A stretch of 64,000 bases of DNA, from the NCBI GenBank assembly GCA_900318115.1, contig ONJJ01000020.1:20629-84628 (forward strand), given 5' to 3'. This document shows, piece after piece, positions 47,066 to 64,000 of this stretch (positions are counted from its first letter, which is position 1; every line of letters begins with the position of its first letter). This stretch comes from an uncultured Prevotellaceae bacterium (lineage in GTDB: Bacteria > Bacteroidota > Bacteroidia > Bacteroidales > Bacteroidaceae). The notes under the pieces were generated by a model that worked only from the letters and a program-made list of their open reading frames with translations, had not been told where the DNA came from and did not search any database. A program made the translations under genes and the position numbers.

Positions 47066-47101
47066 TCTTAAAACTTTATTCCTTAAACTTTACACCTAAA
47101 A

Positions 47102-47755: not shown

Positions 47756-47875
47756 ACAGGGCACAAAGTTCGGCTTTTTCTTCGAAAAAAAGAAAGAAAA
47801 AGGAAGAAAAGCGCATTCTTCCGCGCAAAAATGCATTTTTCTTAGCTTTTTCTTCCTCTCATGCCAAACTTTTAC

Positions 47876-47883
47876 TACCTTTG
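47876..47883 (+). promoter_or_regulatory. -7 box for the ROK kinase gene
   Basis: TACCTTTG matches TAnnTTTG, 57 bp before the start. No clear -33 box. Confidence 0.5.
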
Positions 47884-47940
47884 GCGCCTGAATAGTCATT
47901 TCGTGACGAATACCCCAACCCTAAAGTATAAGACTCAAAA

Positions 47941-50151: not shown

Positions 50152-50163
50152 AGCCTTCCTGTA

Positions 50164-50264
50164 GATCACGGATTACGCGGATTCTTCAAGCGTAAAGCGT
50201 TGCAAGCGCCGAACGGAACGGTTCCTGAGTGAACCATGAAAGCCGTGTAATCCGTGGTCTTTTT
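50164..50264. terminator. Long hairpin terminator between pepT and hlyD
   Basis: GATCACGGATTACGCGG (50164-50180) pairs with CCGTGTAATCCGTGGTC (50243-50259) with two mismatches/wobbles, followed by TTTTT. An inner hairpin GGTTC-ctgagt-GAACC is visible. Both flanking genes converge on it. Confidence 0.75.
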
Positions 50265-50265
50265 G

Positions 50266-51507
50266 TTACCACTCCACCACCTCCGCATCCCCGAAGCGGT
50301 CGTAGCCGCTGATGAGCACCCGGTCGCCCGGCTGCAGTCCTTCGATGACCTCATAGAACTCTGTGTTCTGCCGCCCCAGTTTAATGGGCACGCGGCGGGC
50401 ACGATGCCCCGACTCGTCCACGCGCATGATCCACTGCCCTCCTGTCTGGGCGTAGAAATTGCCGCGAGGGATGATGAGGCGACGTTCGGGCTGTCCCAGT
50501 TCAATTTGCAGGCGGAGCGTGAGACCCGGGCGAAGAGAAGCCTCGCCGCGGAGTGAGGCTTCCACCCCGAATGTATGTTCCTGTACCTGCGGAACAATCC
50601 TACTGATTTCCAAAGCGATTCGTTCGCCTTTGTTAAAGGCCGTGGCGGTTTGTCCGCTTTGCACGCGATCAATGTAGTATTCGTTCAGGCGGGCGGTGAT
50701 CTTATAATCCGTGAGCACTCCTATTTCACCCACCTGTTCGCCCGCTGCAATCTGTCCGCCGATGGTGGCAGAGAGGTTGCTGATTTGTCCGTCCGTGGGC
50801 GCCAGCACGACGAGGGCATCGCGGCGGCGGTCGCTGTTGCGCAGTTTCTGTGCCTCCATCTGCATCTGTTGTTCAATGAGTTGACGACCGATGGCATTGA
50901 GCAACGAGTCGTGATGCAGGCTCTCGATGGTCAATAGCGTGCGGCGGCGGTTGTACTCATACTCATCCCTGGCCACCTCCAGCTGCGCCTGACTCTTCAC
51001 CCCCATGCGCGCCTCCTCCTGCTCGAGAGCGAAGTTCTTGCTGATCTTCCGCAGTTCGAAGTTCGCCTGCAGGGCTTGGCCGCGCAGGGTGATGCTCTTC
51101 TGCTGCATCTCCACGAGTTGTTGGCGATGCTGCATCTGCTGCAGTTCGTAGGTACGCCGCTCCGTCTCTATCTCCTCCAGCACTTTCGGGTTGGAAAGAA
51201 CGAGAATGGTGTCGCCGCGCCGCAGCAGGTCACCGTTGTGACAGCAGATGCGTTCCACAGTGCCCCCTTCCATGGCATTGACACGCATGGAGGTGATGGG
51301 GCACACCAGGCCATTGACGTCCACATACTCCAAGAAGTCGCTGTCGCAGACCACTGCCAGTTGTTCCGCCGCAATCTCCGACTTCAATGTCCGTGGGCGC
51401 AGCTGAAGCACAGCGGCGTAAACGATGAGTGCAAGGAGGAGCGTTCCTCCCACAATATACATCCGATACTTCACGTACCACGGTTTCTTCGGTAACTTAA
51501 TATCCAT
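50266..51507 (-). CDS. HlyD/MacA-like periplasmic adaptor subunit
   Basis: 413 residues. One N-terminal membrane helix (about 15-35, MYIVGGTLLLALIVYAAVLQL). A lipoyl-type half-motif (GGTVERICCHNGDLLRRGDTIL) is followed by a long coiled coil (about 110-240), the second lipoyl half (ALVVLAPTDGQISNLSATIGGQIAAGEQVGEI) and beta-barrel domains ending in GLQPGDRVLISG. Bridges an inner-membrane ABC permease to TolC. Starts 30 bp after tolC on the same strand, so it is under the same sigma-54 promoter. The permeases at 58739 and 62817 are plausible partners. Confidence 0.9.
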   Translation of the reverse strand: MDIKLPKKPWYVKYRMYIVGGTLLLALIVYAAVLQLRPRTLKSEIAAEQLAVVCDSDFLEYVDVNGLVCPITSMRVNAMEGGTVERICCHNGDLLRRGDTILVLSNPKVLEEIETERRTYELQQMQHRQQLVEMQQKSITLRGQALQANFELRKISKNFALEQEEARMGVKSQAQLEVARDEYEYNRRRTLLTIESLHHDSLLNAIGRQLIEQQMQMEAQKLRNSDRRRDALVVLAPTDGQISNLSATIGGQIAAGEQVGEIGVLTDYKITARLNEYYIDRVQSGQTATAFNKGERIALEISRIVPQVQEHTFGVEASLRGEASLRPGLTLRLQIELGQPERRLIIPRGNFYAQTGGQWIMRVDESGHRARRVPIKLGRQNTEFYEVIEGLQPGDRVLISGYDRFGDAEVVEW

Positions 51508-51537
51508 GCTATATTATATTTTACACTTTTCAATCTT

Positions 51538-53007
51538 TCATTTTTCATTTCCCAGCGTCAGGCTTCTCAGCCCATAGTGCAAGCTCCAGAACGTCTGCAG
51601 GGCACCGATGAAAGCACGCTGGGCAGCATCCTTCTCGCTGATGCTCGTGTTCAGTTCCAACAGACTGGTGCGTCCCTGCAGATACAGCCAGCGCGCCACC
51701 TCGTAGCGTCGCAGTGCTGTCTGGCGGGTGCGGTAGGCGATGCGCACGCGGTAGCCCTGGATGTTATACTGCCGCACCATCTTCAGCACGTTCAGCCGGA
51801 AGTCCTGCATGGCCTGTTCGCTCTGTGTCTGAGTCAGTTCCAACCTCGACTGTGCCACGCGCACCTGACCTTTACCGCGTCCCCAATCCAGCAACGGCAG
51901 CGACACGGACAGACTCACGTACTGCTGGTTCATGGGCTTCGTGTAAGCTTCGCGTATCGTGGTGCCCGTCTGGGAAAGACCGAACTGCATATAGAGGTCC
52001 GCCTTCAGGCCACGGCTGGCTTTGGCAGCTGACAGCGCGCTCTGGCTCTCTATCACGTTCAGTCGCAGCTGCTCCGGGTCGGGGTTGTTCTTCAGTGCCA
52101 GTGCCAACGCCTCCTCTGCGTCCACCGTCTGATGCGGGATGATGGTGTCGGGCACCACGCTCAGCACCACGTTCTCCCCCACTCGCAGGTAAGAGCGCAG
52201 CGACTGCATGGCATTCTCCACCTCCGCCTCGGCGTTCAGTCGGTTGGTCTCCTCGCTGAGCTTGTTCACCTCCAGTTGCAGCATCTCGTTTTCGGTGATG
52301 CTGCCACGTTCATAGCGACGCCGGGCGTACTGATGCAGGGTGTCGCTGACGGCATAGTTCTGGCGGGCGATGTCGAGATCCGTCTGCGCCGAAACCAGAT
52401 AAAAGAAATAAGTACTCGCGCGTGAGGCCACCAGCTCCATCGTCTCGGCCAGCTGCTTGCGGGCGATGCTGATGCGCATCGGCTCCGTGCGACGGGCCCA
52501 CCGCAGGCTGTTGTGCCCGAACAGGCTCTGCTGGTAGCCGATGGAGATTGGCACGCTGGAGTATCCGTGCGTGCGCCGCTCAAATTCGTCCTGGCGGTAG
52601 AGGTTGCTGCGCACGAACAACGTGCCGCCCGTCAGCGCCACGTTCTGCGAGATGCTGAGCGAGAGGTCGGTACTCAGTTGGTTCTGCCGCACAAAAATAT
52701 TGGTACCGTCGGGCTGTGTGATGCTGCTCACCTGGCGATTCAGCGAGGGCGCCGTGCTCAACGTGACGGACGGCAGGTAGTTCGCTCGGTAGTAGCGATA
52801 ACTCCACTCCGCCGCTTCCAACTGGTGGCGCGCCGCCAGCGCATCGCTCGACTGCCGCTGCGCCAAGGCCACGACCTCGCTGAGCGTCAGCCGCAACGTG
52901 TCCGCAGGCTCTGCCCAGCCGAGAGCAGGTCCGAGCCTTGTCATTGAGCCCGCCATCGTGCCATTGGCGAGGACAGAAAATATTAAAGTAATCACAATCG
53001 CTTTCAT
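51538..53007 (-). CDS. TolC-family outer-membrane efflux protein
   Basis: 489 residues with a signal-like start (MKAIVITLIFSVLANGTMAGS) and two OEP repeats of long helices: LRLTLSEVVALAQRQSSDALAARHQLEAAEWSY, then VDAEEALALALKNNPDPEQLRLNVIESQSALSAAKASRGLKADLY. Forms the trimeric exit duct of an export complex. It has a near-perfect sigma-54 promoter whose predicted start is only 2 nt before this ATG, so either the mRNA is nearly leaderless or translation begins at the internal ATG (codon 18). First gene of tolC-hlyD. Confidence 0.92.
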   Translation of the reverse strand: MKAIVITLIFSVLANGTMAGSMTRLGPALGWAEPADTLRLTLSEVVALAQRQSSDALAARHQLEAAEWSYRYYRANYLPSVTLSTAPSLNRQVSSITQPDGTNIFVRQNQLSTDLSLSISQNVALTGGTLFVRSNLYRQDEFERRTHGYSSVPISIGYQQSLFGHNSLRWARRTEPMRISIARKQLAETMELVASRASTYFFYLVSAQTDLDIARQNYAVSDTLHQYARRRYERGSITENEMLQLEVNKLSEETNRLNAEAEVENAMQSLRSYLRVGENVVLSVVPDTIIPHQTVDAEEALALALKNNPDPEQLRLNVIESQSALSAAKASRGLKADLYMQFGLSQTGTTIREAYTKPMNQQYVSLSVSLPLLDWGRGKGQVRVAQSRLELTQTQSEQAMQDFRLNVLKMVRQYNIQGYRVRIAYRTRQTALRRYEVARWLYLQGRTSLLELNTSISEKDAAQRAFIGALQTFWSLHYGLRSLTLGNEK

Positions 53008-53020
53008 ACCTCACACTGAG

Positions 53021-53036
53021 GCAAGAAGCGTGCCAA
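53021..53036 (-). promoter_or_regulatory. Sigma-54 promoter of tolC-hlyD
   Basis: The minus strand reads TTGGCACGCTTCTTGC, matching TGGCACG-N4-TTGC. Counting the final C as -12, transcription starts at about 53009. Confidence 0.88.
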
Positions 53037-53090
53037 ACCGTTATCTCACTGATTATCTTCGAAGAAGAAAGATTCTTCCGCTATAAAATA

Positions 53091-53126
53091 CGTGCAAAAC
53101 CGCACATCTTCGTGCGGTTTCGCACA
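53091..53126 (-). promoter_or_regulatory. Pair of activator boxes (UAS) for tolC
   Basis: Two 16-bp boxes, CGTGCAAAACCGCACA (53091) and CGTGCGGTTTCGCACA (53111), start 20 bp apart. The distal edge (53126) is 105 nt from the -12 C at 53021, the same geometry as at 58599 and 62597. The inner AAACCGCAC/GTGCGGTTT also forms a hairpin. Confidence 0.85.
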
Positions 53127-53130
53127 TCTA

Positions 53131-53595
53131 TCAGAATGGGAAAAGAAGGGGTAATACGATAATCATCACGATGCCCATGATGAGCTGCAGAAATCGGCGC
53201 AGGAAGGAGAGCGACTTGCGGTTGCCTTGCCTGTCGATGTGACAGAAGATGCCCGGTGCCTCCTCCACGGCCGCTGTGCCACGGGTGAAGGAGCGGGCAC
53301 TCGTCCACCGACAAGGAATGACGAGGCTGCCACCCTTGTCGATATAACCCCACTTGCCGCTTGAATCCTGCACCGCCGCCAAGTCCTCGCTGAACGAATA
53401 AGCGCGCTGCCACGTGCAGGGGATGACGAGCGTGCCGGCCTCATCAATGAAGCCGTACAGACCCCGCTCATCCCGCACCCAGGCACGTCCGCAGTGGAAA
53501 CCACGTGCATCGTGCCACCGGCAGGGAACGACGATCTGCCCCGCCTTGTCCGCGAAGCCTACAAGGCCCTGTCGCCTCACTCGTTGCAATTTCAT
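53131..53595 (-). CDS. WG-repeat protein with C-terminal membrane anchor
   Basis: 154 residues: four WG-type repeats of about 33 residues (GLVGFADKAGQIVVPCRW; GLYGFIDEAGTLVIPCTW; GKWGYIDKGGSLVIPCRW; a short GIFCHIDRQGN), then a hydrophobic tail (LQLIMGIVMIIVLPLLFPF) that could anchor it. WG repeats form beta-propeller-like or binding modules; role unknown. The start has GAGGAG just upstream. Immediately before it on the same strand is a fragment of an FMN-reductase-like gene. A TACCTTTG box lies at 53732-53725. Confidence 0.75.
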   Translation of the reverse strand: MKLQRVRRQGLVGFADKAGQIVVPCRWHDARGFHCGRAWVRDERGLYGFIDEAGTLVIPCTWQRAYSFSEDLAAVQDSSGKWGYIDKGGSLVIPCRWTSARSFTRGTAAVEEAPGIFCHIDRQGNRKSLSFLRRFLQLIMGIVMIIVLPLLFPF

Positions 53596-53602
53596 CTCCT
53601 CG

Positions 53603-53692
53603 CTATTCAGAGTCCCGATGCATCAGGGCCGTATTCTTGTTCCTGCGCGGACTGCCATTCACGAAGATGGCCTTTAGCGTTTTCTTTTCCAT
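53603..53692 (-). pseudogene. Truncated NADPH-dependent FMN reductase/flavodoxin-like fragment
   Basis: A 29-codon ORF, MEKKTLKAIFVNGSPRRNKN followed by TALMHRDSE and a stop. The pattern (I-F-V-N-G-S-P-R-x-N-x-N-T-A) is the FMN-phosphate loop that opens NAD(P)H-dependent oxidoreductases of about 180-200 aa. The rest of such a gene is missing; the WG-repeat gene starts 8 bases later. Best read as a decayed gene start whose promoter (53732-53725) and position were taken over. Confidence 0.6.
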
Positions 53693-53724
53693 CTTTTATA
53701 GACTGTTTTGATGTTTTAGCGGTG

Positions 53725-53732
53725 CAAAGGTA
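53725..53732 (-). promoter_or_regulatory. -7 box upstream of the flavodoxin fragment and WG gene
   Basis: The minus strand reads TACCTTTG. No clear -33 box at the expected spacing. Confidence 0.4.
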
Positions 53733-53866
53733 ATCAAATTTTTTGATTCCGTTGTTCTCTGAGGTTAAAAATGCACTGATGACCTTGTGTTTTGTAGCAA
53801 GAATTACAGGAAACGCACGTCGATGGGGGCGTCACCTATGCAAATAAGAGTCCTGCTTGCCTCGGT

Positions 53867-55630
53867 TTAAGAAAGTCCTTTCAGCAGTTGCTGCAGGAGG
53901 TAGGTGGCGTTCTGGTTGCGAGCCACGCCGGGCGTGATGCGGTAGGTGTAGGTGATGTGGTCGGAGAGTTGGATTTCGAAGCAGTAGTTGTGGAAGCGGT
54001 CGGAGTGCTCCTCGGCCATGCGGGAGAGTTCCAGGTCGTGGGTGGCGATGACTCCGGTCACGGGCAGCGCACTGACGGCTTCGAGGAAGAGGCGGGAACC
54101 ATTGAGTTTGTCAAGGGAGTTCGTACCTTTCAGGATCTCATCGAGGATGATGAGGGTGTGGGGCGGCTTGGCGGCGTCCGCAGTTGAGGTTGCTCTGACG
54201 AAATCCAGCAGCTGCTGCAACCGCAACAACTCAGCATTGAAATAAGAGATGCCATGGGCGAGGTCGTCGGAAGTGCGCATAGAGGTGAAAAGCGAGAAGA
54301 GCGAGCAACGCAGGTGTCCGGCAAAGACAGGCAGACCGACACGTGCCAGCAATACATTGATACCCACGGAGCGCAGGAAGGTGCTCTTGCCCGCCATATT
54401 GGCGCCCGTGATGATGTAGTAATGTCCGTCGGCGAGGAGGAAGTCATTGCGCACGGCCTTGGCGCCGAGGAAAGGATGCCACAGTCCTTTGGCTTCAAAG
54501 AGGGGTCCCTCCACTACTTCTGCATCGGTAGCTTCGGGGTGATTGAAGCGAAAGGTGGCCAGGGAGACGAGCGCGTCGTAGCGGCTGACGGCCTCTATCC
54601 ATTCGGGGATGCGCTGAAGGTAGCGTTCTTTCCACGACAGGAACCTGCGGACGATGAAGAGGTCGGCCATGAACAGGGCGTTGGAGATGAGAATCCAGAA
54701 CTCATTCCGACGATCGATACTGGCCACGATGGAGGTGAGGGAGGTGAAGGCAGGAGCGGCTTCCGAAGTCTCGGGCACCAGTGCCATCAGCCGTTCATAG
54801 ACCTTCAGCTGGCGGAGGATGCCCTCCGTGGCACGCTTCGTGAGCAGCAACGGACGGGCAAACAGGAGGCTGGCCACCAGCACTTCCAGCACGGCCCAAG
54901 CCATCACACTGCCGGCACCGGCCAGCCCTAAGACGCTGGCCACTAACAGAGCATAGAATCCACCGACAAGAGCGACTGCGAGGTACAGTGCCAGCCAGGA
55001 ACCGGCAAAACGAGGAACGCGGATGGAGGAGACGCCCTCCAAGGCACGCAGGACCGAGGCCGTGTCCACGTGTTCCTGCGCCATGAAGGTCATGCGACGG
55101 GTATCTTCCTCCGCCAACTGCCGAATGGCATCGCGCCGCTGCTGCACCTCGGCGAGTGAGGGCACACGAATCTCGGAAAGCAAGGCTGCCAGATGGTCGC
55201 TGCCACCCGATGTGACTGTGCGGTTCATGCGCTGGAAGAGGGATTCGGGGCCGAAGACATCGAGGTCGGTGGTAAACGGGTGCGCAGGGTCGGCATAGCG
55301 CTTGCCGTCGTCGAAGTGCGAGAAGTCGCCGTCCAAGGCCGCCAGCTCACCTTCATAGACCCTCAGCCACGACTCACACTCGCCCAGCCGTGCCGAGCTA
55401 CGTACATCGAGGCTGCGAATCCAGAGATAAACCAGCACCGCCACGCCAGCAGCCACCAGAAGGGGCCACCACCCATCCGTCACGCCATAAGCCACGGCGA
55501 AAGCCACCGCAGCAAAGAAACTGACCAACTCCGCCACGACGAAGTTTCTGGTCTTTCGCCTCAGCACCACCGCCTCAGCCCGCAGTGCATCGGCCTTCTC
55601 CTGATAGTATGTTTTTAAATCTTGTTGCAT
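53867..55630 (-). CDS. Membrane-anchored MutS-like ATPase
   Basis: 587 residues. Two membrane-helix pairs (about 35-70 and 208-260) frame a helical part. The C-terminal 200 residues are a MutS domain V ATPase: YIITGANMAGKSTFLRSVG (Walker A 409-416), LIILDEILKGTNSLDKLNGSRLFLEAV (Walker B and dimer helix) and VIATHDLELS. The mismatch-recognition domains I and II of MutS are absent, so mismatch repair is unlikely; this matches the poorly studied membrane MutS-related family of Bacteroidetes. Own promoter at 55706-55676. Function unknown. Confidence 0.85.
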   Translation of the reverse strand: MQQDLKTYYQEKADALRAEAVVLRRKTRNFVVAELVSFFAAVAFAVAYGVTDGWWPLLVAAGVAVLVYLWIRSLDVRSSARLGECESWLRVYEGELAALDGDFSHFDDGKRYADPAHPFTTDLDVFGPESLFQRMNRTVTSGGSDHLAALLSEIRVPSLAEVQQRRDAIRQLAEEDTRRMTFMAQEHVDTASVLRALEGVSSIRVPRFAGSWLALYLAVALVGGFYALLVASVLGLAGAGSVMAWAVLEVLVASLLFARPLLLTKRATEGILRQLKVYERLMALVPETSEAAPAFTSLTSIVASIDRRNEFWILISNALFMADLFIVRRFLSWKERYLQRIPEWIEAVSRYDALVSLATFRFNHPEATDAEVVEGPLFEAKGLWHPFLGAKAVRNDFLLADGHYYIITGANMAGKSTFLRSVGINVLLARVGLPVFAGHLRCSLFSLFTSMRTSDDLAHGISYFNAELLRLQQLLDFVRATSTADAAKPPHTLIILDEILKGTNSLDKLNGSRLFLEAVSALPVTGVIATHDLELSRMAEEHSDRFHNYCFEIQLSDHITYTYRITPGVARNQNATYLLQQLLKGLS

Positions 55631-55675
55631 GGTCCGAATCCATCACGTTGGTTTTGTGACGAAGATTTCAGGATG

Positions 55676-55706
55676 CAAAAGTAGGCATTTCTCTTGATTT
55701 CAACAA
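55676..55706 (-). promoter_or_regulatory. Promoter of the MutS-like gene
   Basis: The minus strand shows TTG (55706-55704), 20 bp, then TACTTTTG (55683-55676), 46 bp before the start. Confidence 0.65.
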
Positions 55707-55788
55707 GGATAGGAGCAAGAAAAAAAGATATTTTGTGTTTCCTTGGTTTATTTTAAAAGAACTCTGGATGAAGAATGCAGACTCCTGG

Positions 55789-55825
55789 TGTGCGGAACCG
55801 AACACAAGATGTGCGTTTTCGCACA
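55789..55825 (+). promoter_or_regulatory. Pair of activator boxes upstream of the response-regulator gene
   Basis: TGTGCGGAACCGAACA (55789) and TGTGCGTTTTCGCACA (55810), starts 21 bp apart, fit the same consensus as the boxes of the three sigma-54 promoters. No -24/-12 element follows. Confidence 0.7.
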
Positions 55826-55896
55826 AAATAGAGTGTTTTGAGGCTCTGATAGGCAAATAGCTGGAAGAAGGACGGCCGGGAATGAAGTTTTCTTCT

Positions 55897-55904
55897 TATC
55901 TTTG
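55897..55904 (+). promoter_or_regulatory. -7 box of the response-regulator gene
   Basis: TATCTTTG, 33 bp before the ATG at 55938. It implies a housekeeping promoter and rules out the in-frame ATG at 55902. Confidence 0.6.
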
Positions 55905-55937
55905 CGCAGAAAAATCATCAGACAGAAAACGCCAGTT

Positions 55938-57359
55938 ATGCAAAACCATCCCACAGACAAAGGCTACCGTTCCGTCCCGGACAGGCAAGGCGGGAGCAGA
56001 GCCACTGACGGCCGCATCCTCGTCGTGGATGACAACGAGGATATCCTCTTTGCCCTGAACCTGTTGCTGAAGCCGCTGGTGGAGGACATCAGAGTAGCTA
56101 CCAAACCGGAATTGATCGACAAGTTCTACGACCAGATTCATCCTGACTTAGTGCTGCTGGACATGAATTATAAAAGAGATTCCATCAGTGGCGAGGAAGG
56201 CTTCGAGTGGCTGGAGCACATCCTGCACCGCGACCCGCAGGCCGTCGTCATCCTCATGACGGCCTACTCCGATGCCGACAAGGCCGTGCGAGCGCTGAAG
56301 AGCGGTGCCACGGACTTCATCACCAAGCCCTGGGAGAACTCACGATTGCTGGCCACCATCTTCTCGGGCATCAAGCTTGGACAGGAACGCCATCGCACCC
56401 GTGTGCTGGAACAGCAGATGGAGGTGGCAGCATCACCCTTCGGTGCCACAACAGCTCCCACCATCATCGGCCAGAGTCCTGCCATGCAACACGTCCTGCA
56501 GACCGTGGCACAGGTGGCCGCCACAGATGCCAACGTACTCATTCTGGGCGAGAACGGCACGGGCAAAGATGTCATCGCACGCCAGCTCGGAGCCCTGTCC
56601 GCCCGCGCCTCGAAGCCGTTTGTGAGCATCGACCTGGGCAGCGTGCCGGAACAGTTGTTCGAGAGCGAGCTCTTCGGCTACGAGAAAGGAGCCTTCACCG
56701 ATGCCCGCAAGTCCAAGGCGGGCCGCATGGAGACGGCCAACGGCGGCACGCTCTTCCTCGACGAAATCGGTAACCTGCCCCTACCCTTGCAGGCGAAGAT
56801 GCTCGCCGCCCTGGAACGTCGCGAGATCTCGCGCCTCGGCGGTACGCAGGTGACGTCCATCGACGTCCGTCTCATCTGCGCCACCAATGCCGACCTGCAT
56901 CGCGAGGTGGAAGAAGGACGTTTCCGTGAGGACCTGCTCTACCGCATCAACACCATCGAGATCACGATGCCTCCGCTGCGCGACCGTGGCGAGGACATCA
57001 TCCTGCTGGCCGAACACTTCCTCGCCCTCTACGCGCGTAAATATAATAAGGTGTCGCTCTCGCTGAACCGCGATGCCCGCCAGAAGTTGCTGCGTCACAC
57101 GTGGCCGGGCAACGTGCGGGAGCTGATGCACGCCGTGGAACGGGCCGTGCTACTAGCCAAGGGGCCAGGACTCTGTGCAGCGGACTTCGTACTGAAGGAG
57201 ACCACACGCCGCAGCGCCCAGACACCGACCCTGAACCTCGAACGCCTGGAACAGGAGGCCATACAGCGAGCCATGGACGTCGCGGGAGGCAACATCAGCA
57301 AGGCCGCGGACCTGTTGGGCATCACGAGGTATGCGCTATATAGGAAACTGAATAAGTAA
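55938..57359 (+). CDS. NtrC-type sigma-54-dependent response regulator
   Basis: 473 residues in three domains. Receiver (26-135): ILVVDDNED, phospho-acceptor Asp75 in LVLLDMNY, Lys130 in FITKPW. AAA+ domain: GENGTGKD (204-211), the sigma-54 contact loop GAFTDA (251-256; commonly GAFTGA), TLFLDE (271-276). C-terminal Fis-type helix-turn-helix: NISKAADLLGITRYALYRKLNK, with core KAADLLGITRYALYRKL. It should bind the paired TGTGC-N6-GCACA boxes and drive the sigma-54 promoters of tolC and both permeases. The kinase gene follows after a palindromic repeat. A short RQGGSRATDG stretch before the receiver is poorly conserved-looking. Confidence 0.93.
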   Translation: MQNHPTDKGYRSVPDRQGGSRATDGRILVVDDNEDILFALNLLLKPLVEDIRVATKPELIDKFYDQIHPDLVLLDMNYKRDSISGEEGFEWLEHILHRDPQAVVILMTAYSDADKAVRALKSGATDFITKPWENSRLLATIFSGIKLGQERHRTRVLEQQMEVAASPFGATTAPTIIGQSPAMQHVLQTVAQVAATDANVLILGENGTGKDVIARQLGALSARASKPFVSIDLGSVPEQLFESELFGYEKGAFTDARKSKAGRMETANGGTLFLDEIGNLPLPLQAKMLAALERREISRLGGTQVTSIDVRLICATNADLHREVEEGRFREDLLYRINTIEITMPPLRDRGEDIILLAEHFLALYARKYNKVSLSLNRDARQKLLRHTWPGNVRELMHAVERAVLLAKGPGLCAADFVLKETTRRSAQTPTLNLERLEQEAIQRAMDVAGGNISKAADLLGITRYALYRKLNK

Positions 57360-57365
57360 GGACCC

Positions 57366-57428
57366 ACCCCTCACCCTCCCTCCGCTCGGCCCAAAGGGAC
57401 GCTTCACACTTGAAGAAAGGAAGGGAGT
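57366..57428. repeat. Palindromic element between regulator and kinase genes
   Basis: CCCCTCACCCTCCCTCCGCT, then CGGCCCAAAGGGACGCTTCA and CACTTGAAGAAAGGAAGGGAG. The middle part is nearly identical to 11531-11565 in the chromate transporter gene. Confidence 0.7.
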
Positions 57429-57448
57429 AGCTACCTTATGAAACGGAT

Positions 57449-58594
57449 ATGAAAACGTATTTGTTGTACATAGTTGGACTGGTTTTCTTGCCGCTGGCGA
57501 TAGCGGCGTGCTTGTTTGAGCACCTGCCCGTCACCGCAACAGCCATCAGCCTGCTGCTGCTCGGCTTGTGCATCTCGCTCTACAATCGCATCAGCCGTCT
57601 GCGCTACAGCTACCGCGAGACGGAACGGGAGAACGAGACGCTGCGGCACAAACTCACCGAAAGCGAACGGCAGATGCAGTACCTGCAGCAACTGACGGAA
57701 AACGTCGATACTGCCCTCTTCGTCTGCTCCACCGACGGACGGATTGACTGGATGAATCATGCAGGGAGGAAGATCCTCTCCTCGCTCACCCGTCAGGGGG
57801 AGGGCCTTTTTGGGGTGGGTCTCTTCCTCCCCTCCCCCATCCTTCAGGCCATTGCCGACCACGCCGAGGTGGTGAATGGCTGCGCCCTTTCCACCGTCCT
57901 ATTGCGCATCGACGGACATCGCCGCATGGTGGTGGCGATGAAGGATGTCTCGATGCTGATGCAGCGACAGGAAATGGAGGCTTGGCTGCAACTCATCCGC
58001 GTGCTGACGCACGAAATCATGAACTCGCTGACGCCCATCATCTCCATCAGCGAGACATTGGCAGAATCCCTCCCCCAAGGGGGAGGACAGGAGGGGGCCT
58101 CGGTCATCAACCGTCGCTGCCACGCGCTCCTCGACTTCGTGGAGAGCTACCGACAGCTCACTCGCATCAAACAACCCGAACGCACGACGTTCCCTGTCAG
58201 TGAACTCTTTGAACACATTTCTGCTCTCTATCCACAAGTCCAGACCAAAGGCGACGGACTGCTGACGGCTGACCGTTCACAGTTGGAGCAGGTACTCATC
58301 AACCTCATCAAGAACGCCATCGAAAGCGGAGCAACGCAAATCTCCCTCACCGCGCAGCCGCTCCCCTCCCCGTCGGGTGGGGATGGGGCTGATACAGCCA
58401 TTCATGTAAGCGACAACGGCGCAGGCATGACGCCCGACGTCCTCGCACACGCCTTTGTGCCTTTCTACACGACCAAGCCCAGCGGCACCGGCATCGGCCT
58501 CAGCCTCTGCCGCCAGATTATCCTCAAGCACGGCGGTCACATCAGCGTGAACAGTCATCCCGGCCTCGGCACCACGTTCACCATTACCCTGTAA
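57449..58594 (+). CDS. Sensor histidine kinase
   Basis: 381 residues. Two membrane helices at about 3-22 and 28-45 with almost no periplasmic loop, so it senses within the membrane or cytoplasm. A PAS-like domain (85-165; VDTALFVCSTDGRIDWMNHAG) follows. DHp: VLTHEIMNSLTPI with His188. ATPase: QVLINLIKNAIESGA (N-box), SDNGAGM, GTGIGLSLCRQII. Three low-complexity loops (about 112-130, 206-216, 304-313) coincide with palindromic repeats at the DNA level: one in the PAS domain, one between the DHp helices, one in the ATPase sheet. Partner of the NtrC-type regulator upstream. Confidence 0.92.
   Translation: MKTYLLYIVGLVFLPLAIAACLFEHLPVTATAISLLLLGLCISLYNRISRLRYSYRETERENETLRHKLTESERQMQYLQQLTENVDTALFVCSTDGRIDWMNHAGRKILSSLTRQGEGLFGVGLFLPSPILQAIADHAEVVNGCALSTVLLRIDGHRRMVVAMKDVSMLMQRQEMEAWLQLIRVLTHEIMNSLTPIISISETLAESLPQGGGQEGASVINRRCHALLDFVESYRQLTRIKQPERTTFPVSELFEHISALYPQVQTKGDGLLTADRSQLEQVLINLIKNAIESGATQISLTAQPLPSPSGGDGADTAIHVSDNGAGMTPDVLAHAFVPFYTTKPSGTGIGLSLCRQIILKHGGHISVNSHPGLGTTFTITL
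57780..57840 (+). repeat. Palindromic coding element 1 in the kinase gene
   Basis: CTCACCCGTCAGGGGGAGGG, a T-rich spacer, then CTTCCTCCCCTCCCCC. Encodes SLTRQGEGLFGVGLFLPSP. Confidence 0.7.
58066..58100 (+). repeat. Palindromic coding element 2 in the kinase gene
   Basis: CCCTCCCCCAAGGGGGAGG (58069-58087 region), then ACAGGAGGGGGCC. Encodes SLPQGGGQEGA. Core nearly the same as the intergenic copy at 12182. Confidence 0.75.
58359..58391 (+). repeat. Palindromic coding element 3 in the kinase gene
   Basis: CGCTCCCCTCCCCGTCGGGT, then GGGGATGGGGCTG. Encodes PLPSPSGGDGA in a loop before the SDNGAGM box. Confidence 0.65.
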
Positions 58595-58598
58595 CGCC

Positions 58599-58634
58599 TG
58601 TGCATTTCCGCACAATCCTGGGCGAAAGCGCACA
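58599..58634 (+). promoter_or_regulatory. Pair of activator boxes for the first permease gene
   Basis: TGTGCATTTCCGCACA (58599) and TGGGCGAAAGCGCACA (58619), 20 bp apart. The first base of the distal box is 105 nt before the -12 C at 58704. Confidence 0.88.
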
Positions 58635-58688
58635 GGACGCCGCAAGCAGTGTTTTTGTCATCTCCCGATGAATCAGCGACTTATCGTT

Positions 58689-58704
58689 TTGGCACGGTTC
58701 TTGC
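58689..58704 (+). promoter_or_regulatory. Sigma-54 promoter of the first permease gene
   Basis: TTGGCACGGTTCTTGC; transcription start predicted at 58716, leaving a 23-nt leader. Confidence 0.9.
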
Positions 58705-58738
58705 GCTATTATTATTGTTACAAAATCAGTTTCACAAA

Positions 58739-61264
58739 ATGAATAACCAAGAACAAACAACTCGCCAGCTGCTGCCCTCCCTGACGGGAGGGGGACGGGG
58801 GTGGGTCTTCCTCACCCGCATGAAAGGCTACACCATTCTCTCGCTGCTCGGTCTCATCATCTCCCTCAGCGGTACCGTCATCATCAGCCGCTACCTTTAT
58901 CAGGAATGGACGGTGGATCACTTCATGCCCAACCTCGACCGCACGTTTGTCCTCTTCTCGCAGTACAAGGACAGCCCCGCCGACGATCTGAACCTCGGCA
59001 TGAGCTACGACCCCAACCACGAAGCCGACTTCATCTCGCCCGTGGAAGGTCAGAGCGAGATTGAGGCATACTGCGACATCGAACTCCGCAAGGGATTCCC
59101 CATCGCCCAAGAGGGGAAGGAAGTTATCTATCCCGCCGCCATCACCGTGGAAGACAGCACCTTCTTTCAGATTTATCCTGTGGAAGTCGTGGAAGGTGCC
59201 CGCCAACTGACCGCCGACGGCCAGTGCATGGTCAGCGAGGAGTTGGCGCGCCGCCTGTTCCCCGCGGAGAGTGCTGTGGGCAAGAGCATCCCCATCGAGG
59301 ACGGCACACCGCACACCATCCAGGCCGTCTATCGTCAGCCCTCCACCAAGAGCACCCTGCGCTTCGACATCCTGCAGTTCCGCAAGGAACCGATGCTCAG
59401 CAATTCCTATTCAATCTGCCTCGTGCTGCTGCATGAGGGAGCCGACGCGAACACCTACAACGAGCGGCAACCCTATCAGGAGATATCGCTCTACAGCAAA
59501 CGTCCCATCAAGTTCATTCTCAAACCTTACAGCGAGTTGAGCAACCGTCCGTGGTGGGGAGATGACATGGACGGTACTAAATGCGCTCAGGCAAAAAGCT
59601 CCTCCTCGCACCTGTGGATGCTCTTCTTCGTGGCCATGCTCCTGCTGTTCGTGGGTCTGTTCAACTTCGTGAATCTCTTTGCCGTGATGCGCTCGCACCG
59701 CCGCCACGAACTGCACGTCCGCCGTCTCTTCGGTGCCTCCCGCTGGGATCTCTTCCGCCTGCTCTACTCAGAGACTTTTGTCCTCGCAGCCCTCGCCATG
59801 GTGGGCGTTTGGACGGTGGTGGAACTCACCACGCCCCTGCTCGCTACCTATTATAATATAGAGGTGATGGGGCAGTGGAAGTTTGATGTGGGGCTGACGG
59901 CGGTAATTGTAATCATACTACCATTAGTCGGACCCTCCCCCCTGCCCCTCCCTGCCAGGGAGGGGAGTAATTACCTTTCAAGAATAAAGAGGGCAACCAG
60001 TCAAATACATCTTACTCCCCTCCCTGTCAGGGAGGGGCGGGGGGGAGGGTCTGTCGGGGGGGCTGCTGCCTTCCTTTTCCTCCAGTTCTTCATCTCCCTC
60101 ACCCTCCTCAACGTCAGCCTCTACTTCATGCGCCAGCTGAACGCGATGATGACCACCGATCCGGGCTTTCGCACTAAGGGGTTGCTGAGCGTACTCCTGC
60201 AACCGCACGAGAACAGGGACACGTGGTCGGAAGAGGAATGGCAGGCTCACGTGGCCAGGTCGGCCAGCAACCGCGATGTCATCTTGCAACGCCTGTCGGC
60301 ATGCCCTTACATCAAGACCTACTGCTACGACCCGCACCTCGTCGGCGAACGCCAGGACGACGAAGTCAATGGGAAATACAAAGTCAACCTCTGCTGGATC
60401 AACCCCAAGGCGATGGAGCTGTATGGCCTGCAGGGCGTGGCCGGACGAACATTCAGCGACAGCACGGACCACTTCGCGCAATACCTTTGCATGGTCAACG
60501 AGACGTTCATCCGCCAACTCGAAGTCAAGGACTTCCATGACTTCAAGGTGCAATTCCCCAACCGCGTATGGTGGTCGAACGGATCTGACATGAGCGGCAA
60601 TCCGCCCTTCGAGATTGTGGGTGTGCTGCGCGACTTCCATCCCGGTCGCCAGTCCGAGCCATTGATGCCCACGGTCTATCTCTTCGAGAACTCCGACAGC
60701 GGCAAGGACTCTCCGTTCGGCTTCGAAGGACAGTACCTGCTGATGGACATCGCCGAAAGGCATGAAGAGGACGTCATCACCTATCTGCGCGACCTCGTCC
60801 ACGAACTCTTCGGCACCAACGAGCTGACTTATCAGTGGGTGGAAGACCAGCGCAAGGACCTCTACCGCGAGGACCAGCGCACCGCCCGCATCTTCATCAC
60901 CTTCTCGCTCTTAGCCATCGCCGTGACGTGCCTCGGTGTCCTCGGGCTGATGATGTTCGACGTGCGCCGTCGCTACCGCGAGATAGCACTCCGCAAGGTG
61001 CATGGTGCCACCTTCCTTGACATCGCCCTGCTGCTCTCTCGCCGCTACCTCATCGTCTTCGCCGTGGCCGCCGTCGCCTCGCTGCCCGTCAGCCTCCTCG
61101 TCATCCACCGCCTCATGGCCAGCTACACCATCCACACCTCCTTCGCCTGGTGGATTCCGCTGCTGAGCATCGCACTCATCCTTGGACTGTGCACCCTGAC
61201 GCTGTGGCAGCAGGTGTGGAGGGCTACAAGAATCAAACCGTATCAAATACTCAAAGAACAATAA
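58739..61264 (+). CDS. FtsX/MacB-like ABC transporter permease 1
   Basis: 841 residues from the ATG at 58739 (the longer ORF start at 58649 lies upstream of the transcription start). N-terminal helix (GYTILSLLGLIISLSGTVIIS), a large periplasmic MacB-PCD-type domain (EEWTVDHFMPNLDRTFVL...), three helices, a second periplasmic domain, and a C-terminal FtsX block (FITFSLLAIAVTCLGVLGLMMFDVRRRYREIALRKVHGAT). No ATPase domain, so a separate ATP-binding subunit is needed and is not in the window. In-frame palindromic DNA encodes residues about 10-25 and about 398-440. Likely partners: HlyD adaptor and TolC. Confidence 0.9.
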   Translation: MNNQEQTTRQLLPSLTGGGRGWVFLTRMKGYTILSLLGLIISLSGTVIISRYLYQEWTVDHFMPNLDRTFVLFSQYKDSPADDLNLGMSYDPNHEADFISPVEGQSEIEAYCDIELRKGFPIAQEGKEVIYPAAITVEDSTFFQIYPVEVVEGARQLTADGQCMVSEELARRLFPAESAVGKSIPIEDGTPHTIQAVYRQPSTKSTLRFDILQFRKEPMLSNSYSICLVLLHEGADANTYNERQPYQEISLYSKRPIKFILKPYSELSNRPWWGDDMDGTKCAQAKSSSSHLWMLFFVAMLLLFVGLFNFVNLFAVMRSHRRHELHVRRLFGASRWDLFRLLYSETFVLAALAMVGVWTVVELTTPLLATYYNIEVMGQWKFDVGLTAVIVIILPLVGPSPLPLPAREGSNYLSRIKRATSQIHLTPLPVREGRGGGSVGGAAAFLFLQFFISLTLLNVSLYFMRQLNAMMTTDPGFRTKGLLSVLLQPHENRDTWSEEEWQAHVARSASNRDVILQRLSACPYIKTYCYDPHLVGERQDDEVNGKYKVNLCWINPKAMELYGLQGVAGRTFSDSTDHFAQYLCMVNETFIRQLEVKDFHDFKVQFPNRVWWSNGSDMSGNPPFEIVGVLRDFHPGRQSEPLMPTVYLFENSDSGKDSPFGFEGQYLLMDIAERHEEDVITYLRDLVHELFGTNELTYQWVEDQRKDLYREDQRTARIFITFSLLAIAVTCLGVLGLMMFDVRRRYREIALRKVHGATFLDIALLLSRRYLIVFAVAAVASLPVSLLVIHRLMASYTIHTSFAWWIPLLSIALILGLCTLTLWQQVWRATRIKPYQILKEQ
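58771..58812 (+). repeat. Palindromic coding element in the permease 1 N-terminus
   Basis: CTGCCCTCCCTGACGGGAGG, then GGGACGGGGGTGGGTCT. Encodes LPSLTGGGRGWV just before the first membrane helix. Confidence 0.8.
59930..60054 (+). repeat. Complete inverted pair of palindromic elements inside permease 1
   Basis: The left arm (59930-59970) GGACCCTCCCCCCTGCCCCT / CCCTGCCAGGGAGGGGAGTAA and the right arm (60012-60054) are inverted copies over about 40 bp. The spacer has TTACCTTTCAAGAA and CCAGTCAAATACAT, both echoed in the pair around 62721-62887. Encodes about 42 residues between two membrane helices. Confidence 0.88.
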
Positions 61265-61325
61265 AAGATGGCTCCCCCTCCCCAGTCCTCTCTTTTGAGT
61301 CAAGCAAAGGGATGCTTAGAGGGTG

Positions 61326-61391
61326 CTAATCCAAGAAAATCGCGACTATTTAGGATTATAATCCAAAAAAGTCCTGCTTTTCTTGGATTAG
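61326..61391. promoter_or_regulatory. Nested palindromic operator upstream of the DUF4143 ATPase gene
   Basis: Outer arms CTAATCCAAGAAAA (61326-61339) and TTTTCTTGGATTAG (61378-61391), perfect over 14 bp, enclose the palindrome GGATTATAATCC (61353-61364). The right arm overlaps the -33 TTG. Confidence 0.75.
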
Positions 61392-61413
61392 TGCCTTTTT
61401 CGTATTACCTTTG
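61383..61413 (+). promoter_or_regulatory. Promoter of the DUF4143 ATPase gene
   Basis: TTG (61383-61385), 20 bp, TACCTTTG (61406-61413). This makes the ATG at 61444 the start and excludes the ORF start at 61411. Confidence 0.75.
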
Positions 61414-61443
61414 CGCCGTCATTCTCCACCATCTACCTCCATA

Positions 61444-62568
61444 ATGATTACCCGTACATTACAAGCAAAGATAGAGCAGAGACTTTTCAAAGGAAAGGCT
61501 ATTGTTGTCGTGGGAGCACGCCAGGTCGGTAAGACCACGCTCTTCAATGAAATCCTTCGGGGACGCACGGAAAAGACATTGCGACTCAACCTGGACGAAG
61601 CTGATGCCCGTGAGATCCTCTCCTCTCCGACCATGGCAGAGCTGAAGCAGTTGATAGCCGACAACAGCATCGTCATGATTGACGAAGCCCAGCGAGCAAG
61701 GGATATTGGATTGACCTTAAAGCGCATACAAGACAACTTCCCTCACGTACAGCTGATGGTAACAGGGTCTTCTTCCCTTGATCTCCGGGCCAGTATCAAT
61801 GAGCCGATGACCGGACGCAAATGGGAGTACCAGCTCTTTCCGCTCTCAACGGCTGAGATTCTTGGTGCCAATGGCATCCTCTCGGTCAGGCAGAGTCTGG
61901 AAAGCCGACTCATCTATGGCTCCTATCCTGACGTCCTCAACTATCAGGCCGAAGCACGCGAAACATTGACCAACCTCACAGGCAGCTATCTGTATAAGGA
62001 CCTGCTTGAGCTGGAAGGCATCCGGAAACCTGCTTTGCTGGAGAAGCTGCTGGTGGCACTGGCCTTGCAGCTGGGCAGTGAGGTGTCTTACAATGAGCTG
62101 GCACAAACCGTGGGGTCAGACAGCAAGACCGTAGAAAAGTACATAGACCTGCTGGAGAAGTGCTTTATCGTTTTCCGCTTGCCGGCATTCAGTCGCAACC
62201 TGCGCAATGAACTGAAGAAGAACCGAAAGATATACTTCTTTGATAACGGCGTTCGCAATGCCATTCTACAGAACTTCACCCCTCTGTCCTTACGTGCAGA
62301 CGTCGGAGCCCTCTGGGAGAATTTCTTCATCAGTGAACGGCTAAAGGCAAACCACTATGGCGGACACTATGCCAAGAGCTACTTCTGGCGTACCAAATCG
62401 CAACAGGAAATCGACTATATCGAGGAGTGCGACGGAAGTTTACGTGCCTTTGAGCTAAAATGGAATCCCAAGCGAGCGAACACCTCTATTCCCACCTCCT
62501 TCCTGCAAGCTTACCCCGTGGAAGAGGCGGTCGTCATTACTCCCGAAAACTATCTGGACTTCTTATAG
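61444..62568 (+). CDS. AAA-type ATPase with DUF4143 domain
   Basis: 374 residues. N-terminal ATPase: VVVGARQVGKTTLFNEIL (Walker A GARQVGKTT), SIVMIDEAQRARDIG (Walker B) and LMVTGSSSLDL (sensor). The DUF4143 half has LLEKLLVALALQLGSEVSYNELAQTVGSDSKTVEKYIDLLEKCFIVFRL and KIYFFDNGVRNAIL, then FWRTKSQQEIDYIEE...FELKW, a nuclease-like D/E-x-K pattern found in this family. Common orphan genes in Bacteroidetes, function unsettled. It breaks the permease series with its own promoter/operator, which suggests insertion. Confidence 0.88.
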   Translation: MITRTLQAKIEQRLFKGKAIVVVGARQVGKTTLFNEILRGRTEKTLRLNLDEADAREILSSPTMAELKQLIADNSIVMIDEAQRARDIGLTLKRIQDNFPHVQLMVTGSSSLDLRASINEPMTGRKWEYQLFPLSTAEILGANGILSVRQSLESRLIYGSYPDVLNYQAEARETLTNLTGSYLYKDLLELEGIRKPALLEKLLVALALQLGSEVSYNELAQTVGSDSKTVEKYIDLLEKCFIVFRLPAFSRNLRNELKKNRKIYFFDNGVRNAILQNFTPLSLRADVGALWENFFISERLKANHYGGHYAKSYFWRTKSQQEIDYIEECDGSLRAFELKWNPKRANTSIPTSFLQAYPVEEAVVITPENYLDFL

Positions 62569-62596
62569 ACAGACATATCACTTGAGGCATGAATGG

Positions 62597-62632
62597 TGTG
62601 CATTTCCGCACACTTGTGAGCGAAAGCGAACA
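62597..62632 (+). promoter_or_regulatory. Pair of activator boxes for the second permease gene
   Basis: TGTGCATTTCCGCACA (62597, identical to 58599) and TGAGCGAAAGCGAACA (62617), 20 bp apart and 105 nt from the -12 C at 62702. Confidence 0.88.
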
Positions 62633-62641
62633 AAAAGGGAG

Positions 62642-62679
62642 AAACACTGATTTCTGTATTCATCAGGCAATCAGTGTTT
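62642..62679. terminator. Hairpin between ATPase gene and permease 2 promoter
   Basis: AAACACTGATT (62642-62652) and AATCAGTGTTT (62669-62679), perfect 11 bp, followed by TCTTGTTTT. Possible terminator of the DUF4143 gene, lying between the boxes and the sigma-54 promoter. Confidence 0.55.
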
Positions 62680-62686
62680 TCTTGTT

Positions 62687-62702
62687 TTGGCACGGTTCTT
62701 GC
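62687..62702 (+). promoter_or_regulatory. Sigma-54 promoter of the second permease gene
   Basis: TTGGCACGGTTCTTGC, identical to 58689-58704. The predicted leader (62714-62816) is lengthened to 103 nt by a palindromic element. Confidence 0.9.
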
Positions 62703-62720
62703 GAAGTGATAAGTGGGACA

Positions 62721-62887
62721 AGACTCTCCCCCCGCCCTCTCCTGTAGGGAGGGAGCGGTCACTTTCCAAGAAGTGAAAACATTAAATGCCATAAAAGTAA
62801 AAAGATTAAACTGTCAATGAACAAGAACACATCCAGTCAAAATCATTCTGCTCCCTCCCTATCAGGGAGGGCGGGGGGAGAGTCCGC
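62721..62887 (+). repeat. Inverted pair of palindromic elements spanning leader and N-terminus of permease 2
   Basis: Left arm GACTCTCCCCCCGCCCT (62723-62740 region) in the leader; right arm AGGGCGGGGGGAGAGTC (62866-62884 region) in the coding sequence; inner halves CTCCCTCC and GGGAGGGAG. The start codon at 62817 lies within the element. Confidence 0.85.
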
Positions 62888-64000
62888 GGCGTCCGCTTTT
62901 CGTTTCTTAACCCGCATGAAAGGCTACACCATCCTCTCGCTGCTCGGACTCATCATCTCCCTCAGCGGCACCGTCATCATCAGTCGCTACCTCTATCAAG
63001 AGTGGACGGTTGATCACTTCATGCCCTCCCTCGACCGCACATATATCCTCAAGGTTGGCAACGGGGATTACGGTAGCTTTCCGGCGAACTACAAACTCTT
63101 CGGCATCGAGCAATTAGCTTCTCACTTCGAGGGACGCGACGAGTTGGAGGCTGTGGCTTCGCTCCATGTCTTCGAGACCATGAAGGTGACGATGCCCAGC
63201 GGTGAGGTGCTGCAACCCGGAACCATCGGCGTGGATAGCATGTTCTTGGATCTCTACCCTTTGCGCCTCGCGGATGGCACGGGAACGCTGACGGGCGACG
63301 ACAAATGTCTGCTCAGCGAGAAGCTGGCCGCACAACTGTTTCCCAACAAACGCGCTGTGGGACAGACGCTGACGCTGAACAGCAGCGAGCTGCGCACCAT
63401 TGTGGGTGTCTTCCGTCAACCCGAGACCAAGACGAGCCTGCGCTTCGACCTCATTTGCTCTGAGACCATTCCCAACCAGCGTAATTCCGTGACTGCATTC
63501 ACGATTCTCCGCTTCCGTCCGGGAACCGACATTCAAGCTTACAACGCCCAGCTGTCAGACGACTTTGACATGGGTTTCTCTGGCGACAGGACCTTCAAGT
63601 TCTCCGTCCATCCCTATAGCCAAGGCTTCTTGGATAGTGAATACCAGAAAGCCTGGTCACAGAATTACGTCAGCGGTATCATTCAACTGCGCAGCAACCC
63701 TCACTATCTGTGGCTGTTGCTGGTCGTGGCTATCCTGCTCCTCGGCGTGGGTCTTTTCAATTTCGTCAACCTCTTCGCCGTGATGCGTTCGCATCGTCGC
63801 CACGAACTGCACGTCCGCCGCCTCTTCGGTGCCTCACGCTGGGACCTCTTCCGCCTGCTCTACTCCGAGACCTTCGTCCTCGCCCTCCTCGCTATGGTAG
63901 GTGTCTGGACGGTGGTGGAACTCACCACACCCCTGCTCGCCACCTATTATAATATAGAAGTGATGGGGCAGTGGAAGTTTGATGTGGGACTGACGCTCAC
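62817..64000 (+). CDS. FtsX/MacB-like ABC transporter permease 2 (cut by window end)
   Basis: Open from the ATG at 62817 to the edge, 394 codons. The N-terminal peptide NTSSQNHSAPSLSGRAGGES, from a palindromic element, is almost the one found on Fmt. Then comes RMKGYTILSLLGLIISLSGT, a periplasmic domain different from permease 1 (KVGNGDYGSFPANYKLFGIEQL), and a membrane block near 63710-64000 that is nearly identical in DNA to permease 1 (VMRSHRRHELHVRRLFGASR). Same sigma-54 promoter architecture as permease 1. Paralogue by tandem duplication. Confidence 0.9.
   Translation, partial: MNKNTSSQNHSAPSLSGRAGGESAASAFRFLTRMKGYTILSLLGLIISLSGTVIISRYLYQEWTVDHFMPSLDRTYILKVGNGDYGSFPANYKLFGIEQLASHFEGRDELEAVASLHVFETMKVTMPSGEVLQPGTIGVDSMFLDLYPLRLADGTGTLTGDDKCLLSEKLAAQLFPNKRAVGQTLTLNSSELRTIVGVFRQPETKTSLRFDLICSETIPNQRNSVTAFTILRFRPGTDIQAYNAQLSDDFDMGFSGDRTFKFSVHPYSQGFLDSEYQKAWSQNYVSGIIQLRSNPHYLWLLLVVAILLLGVGLFNFVNLFAVMRSHRRHELHVRRLFGASRWDLFRLLYSETFVLALLAMVGVWTVVELTTPLLATYYNIEVMGQWKFDVGLTL

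Follow-up and report, generated by a model that had tools for sequence, protein, structure and literature searches.

A predicted sigma-54 regulon with conserved enhancer geometry at an exporter locus of an uncultured Prevotellaceae bacterium

We analyzed a 64,000-nucleotide (nt) stretch of the genome of an uncultured gut- or rumen-type Prevotellaceae bacterium (GenBank assembly GCA_900318115.1, contig ONJJ01000020.1, positions 20,629–84,628; hereafter “the window”), in which genes for a TolC-type channel and two FtsX-type permeases each lie behind a sigma-54 promoter and a pair of palindromic boxes. Judging from sequence comparisons, this is very probably a sigma-54 regulon through which a single NtrC-type two-component pair governs a tripartite MacB/DarB-like ATP-binding cassette (ABC) exporter, i.e., TolC, HlyD, duplicated FtsX/MacB permeases, and a separate ATPase. 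Specifically, we propose that a signal at or in the inner membrane is sensed by the kinase, which would then phosphorylate the regulator. Dimers of the regulator would bind two TGTGCG-N4-CGCACA palindromes located on the same face of the DNA, at a distance of about two helical turns. The bound dimers would assemble into an AAA+ oligomer, which a spacer of ~55 nt would let reach the sigma-54 polymerase at −24/−12. The tolC–adaptor genes, permease 1, and permease 2 would then be switched on together, with the permease 2 transcript probably reaching the ATPase gene, and a fourth box pair would probably tune the regulator’s own housekeeping promoter. Inducible activation of the exporter genes, already suggested in an earlier note on this DNA, is what we infer from this arrangement.

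Promoters and box pairs at the exporter locus

Three sigma-54 promoters can be read directly from the sequence: TTGGCACGCTTCTTGC for tolC (53036-53021, minus strand) and TTGGCACGGTTCTTGC for permease 1 (58689-58704) and permease 2 (62687-62702). At all three, the boxes start 20 bp apart, the distal box starts 105 nt from the −12 C, and 55 nt separate the end of the proximal box from TGGCAC, with some imperfect half-sites among the boxes (TGGGC, TGAGC..GAACA, CGTGC). The earlier note had described this geometry from the letters alone, and it is confirmed here; its count of three box-paired genes was correct as far as it went but missed a fourth pair, which precedes the regulator gene. The exact −24/−12 pattern TGGCACNNNNNTTGC has four matches in the window, three of which are these promoters. 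The remaining one (62054-62068) lies within the open reading frame of a DUF4143 gene, where the box pair scan found no pair beside it, and is probably a chance match. Transcription of tolC is predicted to start at ~53009, which would give a nearly leaderless transcript with 2 nt ahead of the ATG at 53007; the same 2-nt leader is predicted at the related loci L052, L141, and L142, and leaders of ~8 to 64 nt for tolC elsewhere among relatives.

We then asked how often these elements occur in the 3.33-Mb assembly, which is about 87% complete and in which the window forms the end of contig C20, stopping inside permease 2. Single boxes are not enriched: the window has 38 matches to TGTGC-N6-GCACA (≤2 mismatches) vs 37.65 expected, and TGTGCG-N4-CGCACA (≤1 mismatch) is found at nine places in the genome vs 11 for a control pattern, although six of these nine cluster within 9.5 kb at the exporter locus. 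Since boxes alone and promoters alone remain near chance, we did not use single-element searches as evidence. The combined two-box pattern does exceed chance. With a 4-nt gap and ≤3 mismatches, it is found at three places in the genome, namely upstream of tolC, permease 1, and permease 2 (control, 0), and with a 5-nt gap at one place, the pair upstream of the regulator gene.

Conservation of the geometry among related loci

Regulator matches with E ≤ 1e-100 were obtained in at least 102 of 301 genomes of the family and at least 198 of 393 genomes of the order, paralogues included. We defined orthologues as regulator matches with ≥50% identity, which among the matches listed are found in 66 family genomes; among the family matches listed, this group is separate from matches at ≤49%, while order-level identities are continuous without such a gap. 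In the usual layout among relatives, tolC is divergent from the regulator–kinase genes with a box pair in between, and the adaptor, permeases, and ATPase (where seen) lie on the tolC side. Close relatives (L052, L164-L168) carry a second pair and promoter behind the kinase gene, before a permease gene where the contig shows it. In the window, the exporter genes are divided among three promoters, and each of these has a box pair.

The distance between boxes and promoter is largely conserved across these loci. For 105 oriented box pairs (a palindromic pair counts once per orientation, and near-identical genomes are included), promoters with ≤1 mismatch within 200 nt of the pair number 6, 19, 3, and 2 at gaps of 54, 55, 56, and 57 nt, respectively, with another 3 at other gaps, i.e., 30 of 33 fall at 54–57 nt; with ≤2 mismatches, 38 do so vs 11 elsewhere. 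A joint test of boxes and promoter, applied to 8 kb or the available stretch around the regulator at 32 orthologue loci, gave a score ≤7 in 29 loci, with boxes 20–21 bp apart and the 54–57-nt gap kept, while none of 320 shuffles reached this score (minimum 10). Finally, in 35 hand-chosen genomes out of the 66, the 5-nt-gap pattern was found at 28 places, 25 of them within 3 kb of an orthologue, and the 4-nt-gap pattern at 13 places, all at regulator loci (control, 0 for both). The three off-locus sites (G094:C4:71999-72035, G069:C22:43395-43431, and G010:C18:22873-22909) are possible extra regulon members or chance matches.

Paralogous loci and the origin of the spacing

We also examined loci of paralogous regulators. 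Among the first eight, clear palindromes of other wording were found at 54–56 nt in three (L208, L209, and L212). Forty further loci were added, for a total of 48, with sigma-54 sites chosen by position before genes and the palindrome wording left free. Fourteen of the 32 sites obtained carry a perfect 6+6 palindrome at a gap of 54–56 nt, for an expectation from letter shuffles of ~0.05 per gap over all sites; four of these come from the first eight loci and 10 from the new ones. Further peaks occur at 76–77 nt (the distal box) and ~65 nt (between the boxes). With imperfect palindromes and a degenerate word chosen after seeing the data, L202, L204, and L206 display proximal boxes at 53, 52, and 54 nt and distal boxes at 76, 75, and 77 nt, respectively. 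A palindrome one helical turn farther, at 63–65 nt in L204 and L206, was considered as an alternative box and rejected: these are inter-box palindromes, and the common spacing fits both loci. Exporter genes are present in the available stretch of 37 of the 48 paralogue loci.

The earlier note attributed the exact spacing to strong selection or recent duplication. If one control region had simply been copied, the geometry could be identical without any constraint on spacing, and the two permeases offer some grounds for this: their control regions are identical at 80 of 118 positions, and part of their N-termini is nearly identical. Duplication is thus plausible for permease 1 vs permease 2, but contradicted for tolC, whose control region matches the two permease regions at only 60 and 58 of 118 positions, boxes and promoter included, and at 21–22 of 55 spacer positions. 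Because other genera and families show the same spacing, as do paralogues whose operator words differ, we consider recent duplication a very unlikely general explanation. The two-box spacing rather appears to be old and mostly kept by selection, with local duplication limited to the control regions of the two permease genes.

Operator words and recognition helices

To compare operator words, we scored 80 loci for a sigma-54 site and a palindrome at a gap of 53–57 nt, with reversed sequence as control; a BLAST-based regulator finder was used here, as a finder relying on the GAFT.A motif overlooked 15 loci. A joint score ≤2 was obtained for 27 loci vs 2 of 80 reversed controls. The operator words of these 27 loci fit the recognition helix of the regulator. 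Thirteen have the helix R[YF][AS]L, ten of them with TGTGCG-type words in register, two (L165 and L177) overlapping a TGTGCG-type site out of register, and one (L179) with a degenerate word (TTTGCG..TGCAAA). The helix RQTL goes with TGTC[TC]A words (10 loci) and RPT with TGTAAA words (4 loci), and a word belonging to a different class occurs at none of the 27 loci, bearing in mind that the words were defined by inspecting part of the 80 loci and that loci are related.

The correspondence was then tested on new material taken from other families. Of 10 such loci with the R[YF][AS]LYRK helix, nine carry a TGTGCG pair at ≤5 mismatches (one shuffle each: 8–10 mismatches); the tenth, L265, begins at the regulator gene, and L260 and L262 are near-duplicates. 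With both orientations scored, the best promoter (1–3 mismatches) lies at 53–55 nt in seven of these nine; L259 has a promoter with 4 mismatches at 55 nt, and L261 has none. A fourth class, RTSLYRR/ASLYRR (18 order-level loci, L267-L284), shows weak TGT[TA]CG pairs, with 8 of 18 at ≤4 mismatches compared to 6 to 9 mismatches in 54 shuffles. A TTGGCAT site with 3 mismatches lies at 65–66 nt in six of the 18 (L267, L270, L271, L275, L283, and L284), the promoter being scored without a control. We treat these boxes, with a spacing one helical turn longer, as a lead only.

These patterns bear on whether the boxes belong to the NtrC-type regulator or to another DNA-binding protein, e.g., a repressor, with the regulator acting elsewhere. 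Palindromic boxes alone cannot name their binder, and in several relatives the pair ends 21–22 nt before the regulator’s TAnnTTTG element, where a repressor could act. However, a separate binder would not readily account for the absence of mismatched helix–word combinations among the 27 well-scoring loci, the TGTGCG word at nine of the 10 new loci that share the window’s helix class, or the location of 38 of 41 two-box places in the 35 genomes at the regulator locus, and we give this explanation hardly any credence.

Several points nonetheless weigh against a regulon controlled through these boxes, beyond the lack of enrichment of single boxes. Three of the 32 orthologue loci fail the joint test: L057, where the pair lies 6.2 kb off, upstream of tolC, with a gap of 56 nt; L182, where no pair was found in the test; and L183, the pair of which is located in the adjoining stretch L182 at 19383. 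L053 and L056 pass through their boxes, the promoter being poor. At the chosen threshold, a two-box match at the regulator locus is lacking in 5 of the 35 genomes: G017, G149, G290, and G298 have neither gap pattern, and G069 has an off-locus match only. Because loci are related, these counts are not independent. Among paralogues, only 28 of the 48 loci yielded usable sigma-54 sites (32 in total), 11 show no exporter gene in the available stretch (several being cut by contig ends), and at a joint score ≤3 the separation of the 80 loci from control narrows to 42 vs 12.

As a separate observation, contig C12 of G069 (L182 3157, L183 464) holds two regulator–kinase pairs ~17 kb apart that flank one exporter cluster, with a recognizable box pair at the second only.

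Taken together, we lean modestly towards a broader interpretation, in which Bacteroidales encode a family of parallel, insulated sigma-54 export switches. These would share a frozen geometry, with palindromes 20–23 bp apart and a proximal edge ~52–57 nt upstream of −24. What differs between them would be the operator word, set by small changes in the recognition helix: TGTGCG for R[YF][AS]LYRK, [TC]GTC[TC]A for RQTLYNK, and TGTAAA for RPT[LF]Y. RTSLYRR may read TGT[TA]CG at ~65 nt, and signal sensing by the kinase may take place through the exporter membrane. Such switches coexist in at least one genome, as G080 holds both a TGTGCG-type (L171) and a TGTCTA-type locus (L209).

Regulator gene and its own box pair

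The regulator combines a receiver, a sigma-54 AAA+ domain, and a Fis-type helix-turn-helix, all with Pfam matches above cut-offs, and its gene most likely starts at the ATG at 55938 rather than the TTG at 55902. The genome encodes sigma-54 (PF04552, 172 bits), and exact −24/−12 promoters stand at the putative targets, as expected for an NtrC-type protein; the pairing of such a regulator and its kinase with sigma-54 promoters, noted earlier, holds up on this basis. Enhancer binding and ATP-dependent activation are predicted functions.

The fourth box pair (55789-55825) includes the only exact TGTGCG-N4-CGCACA in the assembly. Its boxes start 21 bp apart (5-nt gap), and a scan for promoters and boxes identified no facing sigma-54 promoter. 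The pair instead precedes a TAnnTTTG sequence, which we take to be the Bacteroides −7 element. The distance between the two is 70–71 nt in nine of nine loci of the window type (window, L052, L053, L164-L168, and L174) and 21–22 nt in L170-L173, L175, L176, L180, L181, and L205; deviating distances were found in L177 (59), L178 (93), L213 (32), L214 (32), and L216 (191). We read this arrangement as probable autoregulation.

Kinase and possible signal

Based on hydropathy, the window kinase has an N-terminal hydrophobic hairpin without a sizeable periplasmic domain. A stretch of ~45–50 residues that fits two helices and a very short loop is found in 24 of 27 orthologous kinases, while L057, L178, and L179 have no hydrophobic segment at all, so that most, though not all, of the orthologous kinases are likely to sense in or at the membrane. 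Intramembrane-sensing histidine kinases are characterized by two membrane helices, a very short loop, and no other sensory domain. The window kinase has, from hydropathy, the two helices and short loop of this group; it has no PAS match at 1e-3, and the stretch between hairpin and HisKA is without domain assignment.

One possibility, compatible with the regulon proposed here, is that the hairpin reads the state of the FtsX-type permease, the exporter being both target and sensor. Bce-type modules of Firmicutes offer a comparison case for sensing through a permease. The hairpin in 24 of 27 kinases would agree with this, as would five orthologous kinases of only ~320–334 amino acids, which have little room for a further input domain, and the permease gene following the kinase gene in the window and several close relatives. 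On the other hand, three orthologous kinases lack any hydrophobic segment, the stretch before HisKA in the window kinase could itself be a sensor, and contact between kinase and permease is only a proposal. We thus regard sensing through the permease as tentative and rather doubtful.

Exporter genes and neighboring features

Coordinates of the features discussed here are collected in Table 1. Permease 1 and the available part of permease 2 lack an ABC_tran domain in Pfam searches, and no exporter ATPase gene was found within window positions 44000-64000. The first gene on contig C24 of the same genome encodes a permease C-terminus (61% to permease 1), and the ABC ATPase encoded next shares 89% identity with the one in the relative L164. 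The energy source of the exporter is therefore probably adjacent to permease 2. The idea of one export machine made of duct, adaptor, and permeases agrees with the protein families, but was incomplete in leaving out this likely ATPase. The ABC ATPases at these loci carry an SGCGK Walker A; a search for SGSGK overlooked them, and they were recovered by reading the gaps between genes.

Table 1 Features of the exporter locus in the window.
Feature	Position	Strand	Basis or remark
HlyD-type periplasmic adaptor	50266..51507	-	Pfam HlyD_3 4.2e-15; best NCBIfam DarC 113 bits, cut-off 450
TolC-type outer membrane channel	51538..53007	-	Pfam OEP 1.2e-36
tolC sigma-54 -24/-12 promoter	53021..53035	-	exact TGGCACNNNNNTTGC
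Proximal regulator box, tolC	53091..53106	-	pattern scan; 55 nt to TGGCAC
Distal regulator box, tolC	53111..53126	-	pattern scan
Fourth pair, first box	55789..55804	+	upstream of regulator gene; pattern scans
Fourth pair, second box	55810..55825	+	exact TGTGCG-N4-CGCACA
TATCTTTG, putative housekeeping -7 element of regulator gene	55897..55904	+	71 nt past fourth pair
NtrC-type response regulator	55938..57359	+	Pfam Response_reg, Sigma54_activat, HTH_8
Histidine kinase	57449..58594	+	HATPase_c 1.5e-25; hydropathy
Distal regulator box, permease 1	58599..58614	+	pattern scan
Proximal regulator box, permease 1	58619..58634	+	pattern scan
Permease 1 sigma-54 -24/-12 promoter	58690..58704	+	exact TGGCACNNNNNTTGC
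Permease 1, duplicated MacB_PCD/FtsX, 841 amino acids, without ATPase domain	58739..61264	+	FtsX 1.7e-23, two stretches; hydropathy
Distal regulator box, permease 2	62597..62612	+	pattern scan
Proximal regulator box, permease 2	62617..62632	+	pattern scan
Permease 2 sigma-54 -24/-12 promoter	62688..62702	+	exact TGGCACNNNNNTTGC
Permease 2, incomplete at contig end	62817..64000	+	family search; contig C24 comparison

Other genes are interspersed with this locus. Between tolC and the regulator gene, which are directly divergent in many relatives, lie genes for a WG-repeat protein and a MutS-like ATPase (53131-55630), and a DUF4143/AAA_14 ATPase gene (61411-62568) lies between permeases 1 and 2, as if inserted. 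A GC-rich dispersed palindromic repeat, with the core CCCTCCCTNNNNGGGAGGG or a degenerate form of it, occurs at 58360-58392, 58773-58806, 59946-60036, 62727-62765, and 62853-62871, in frame within the kinase and permease genes and also in the permease 2 leader. Across the genome, the core has 95 forward and 90 reverse matches vs 4 and 5 for the control, palindromic places being counted on both strands. The repeat segment of the kinase is missing from five of six aligned relatives, L052 having a similar one, and the permease linker between the two halves is variable among aligned relatives.

Implications and comparison with known systems

A general link between sigma-54 and such permeases is already known: predicted sigma-54 regulation is enriched at COG0577 (FtsX-like) permeases in Bacteroidia and two other classes, according to the available part of PMC12316311. 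That part surveys promoters and treats enhancer-binding proteins in general terms, and contains no regulator boxes, spacing rule, or helix–operator correspondence. The main text of a 2011 sigma-54 survey (PMC3162934), as far as available, does not mention Bacteroid, efflux, ABC transporter, Porphyromonas, or permease. A literature search across open-licence papers returned neither the enhancer geometry shared among paralogues nor the helix–operator correspondence; among the papers listed, PMC12316311 came nearest to a system of this type.

If correct, this correspondence would provide a rule for sigma-54 regulons in Bacteroidales, i.e., the recognition helix of a regulator would point to an operator word to be sought ~52–57 nt upstream of −24/−12. 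Many unassigned two-component pairs could in this way be tied to exporters likely under their control. A fixed spacing with an operator word drifting along with the protein would also represent a natural experiment on the way enhancer-binding proteins get to the polymerase.

Among characterized systems, the best named model for the regulator is TIGR02915 (416 bits), presumably named for PrsR of PEP-CTERM systems. The two share a receiver, a sigma-54 AAA+ domain, and a Fis-type helix-turn-helix, but the score is under the 503-bit cut-off and the targets appear to differ. For permease 1, the top NCBIfam match is ADOP (TIGR03434), described as a duplicated permease, at 183 bits and thus below the 622-bit cut-off. 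MacAB-TolC, a macrolide and peptide exporter, has MacB_PCD and FtsX domains, a MacA-like adaptor, and the TolC family in common with the system described here. Unlike in MacB, however, the ATPase is not fused to the permease N-terminus, the likely ATPase on contig C24 being a separate protein, and two FtsX stretches lie in one permease chain. DarBCD, the darobactin exporter (NCBIfam NF038008, NF038010, and NF038007), likewise has separate permease, adaptor, and ATPase proteins. DarC and DarD are the best NCBIfam models for the adaptor and the C24 ATPase, and DarB is second to ADOP for permease 1, all with scores below the model cut-offs (adaptor, 113 vs 450 bits; permease, 54 vs 700; ATPase, 287 vs 375).

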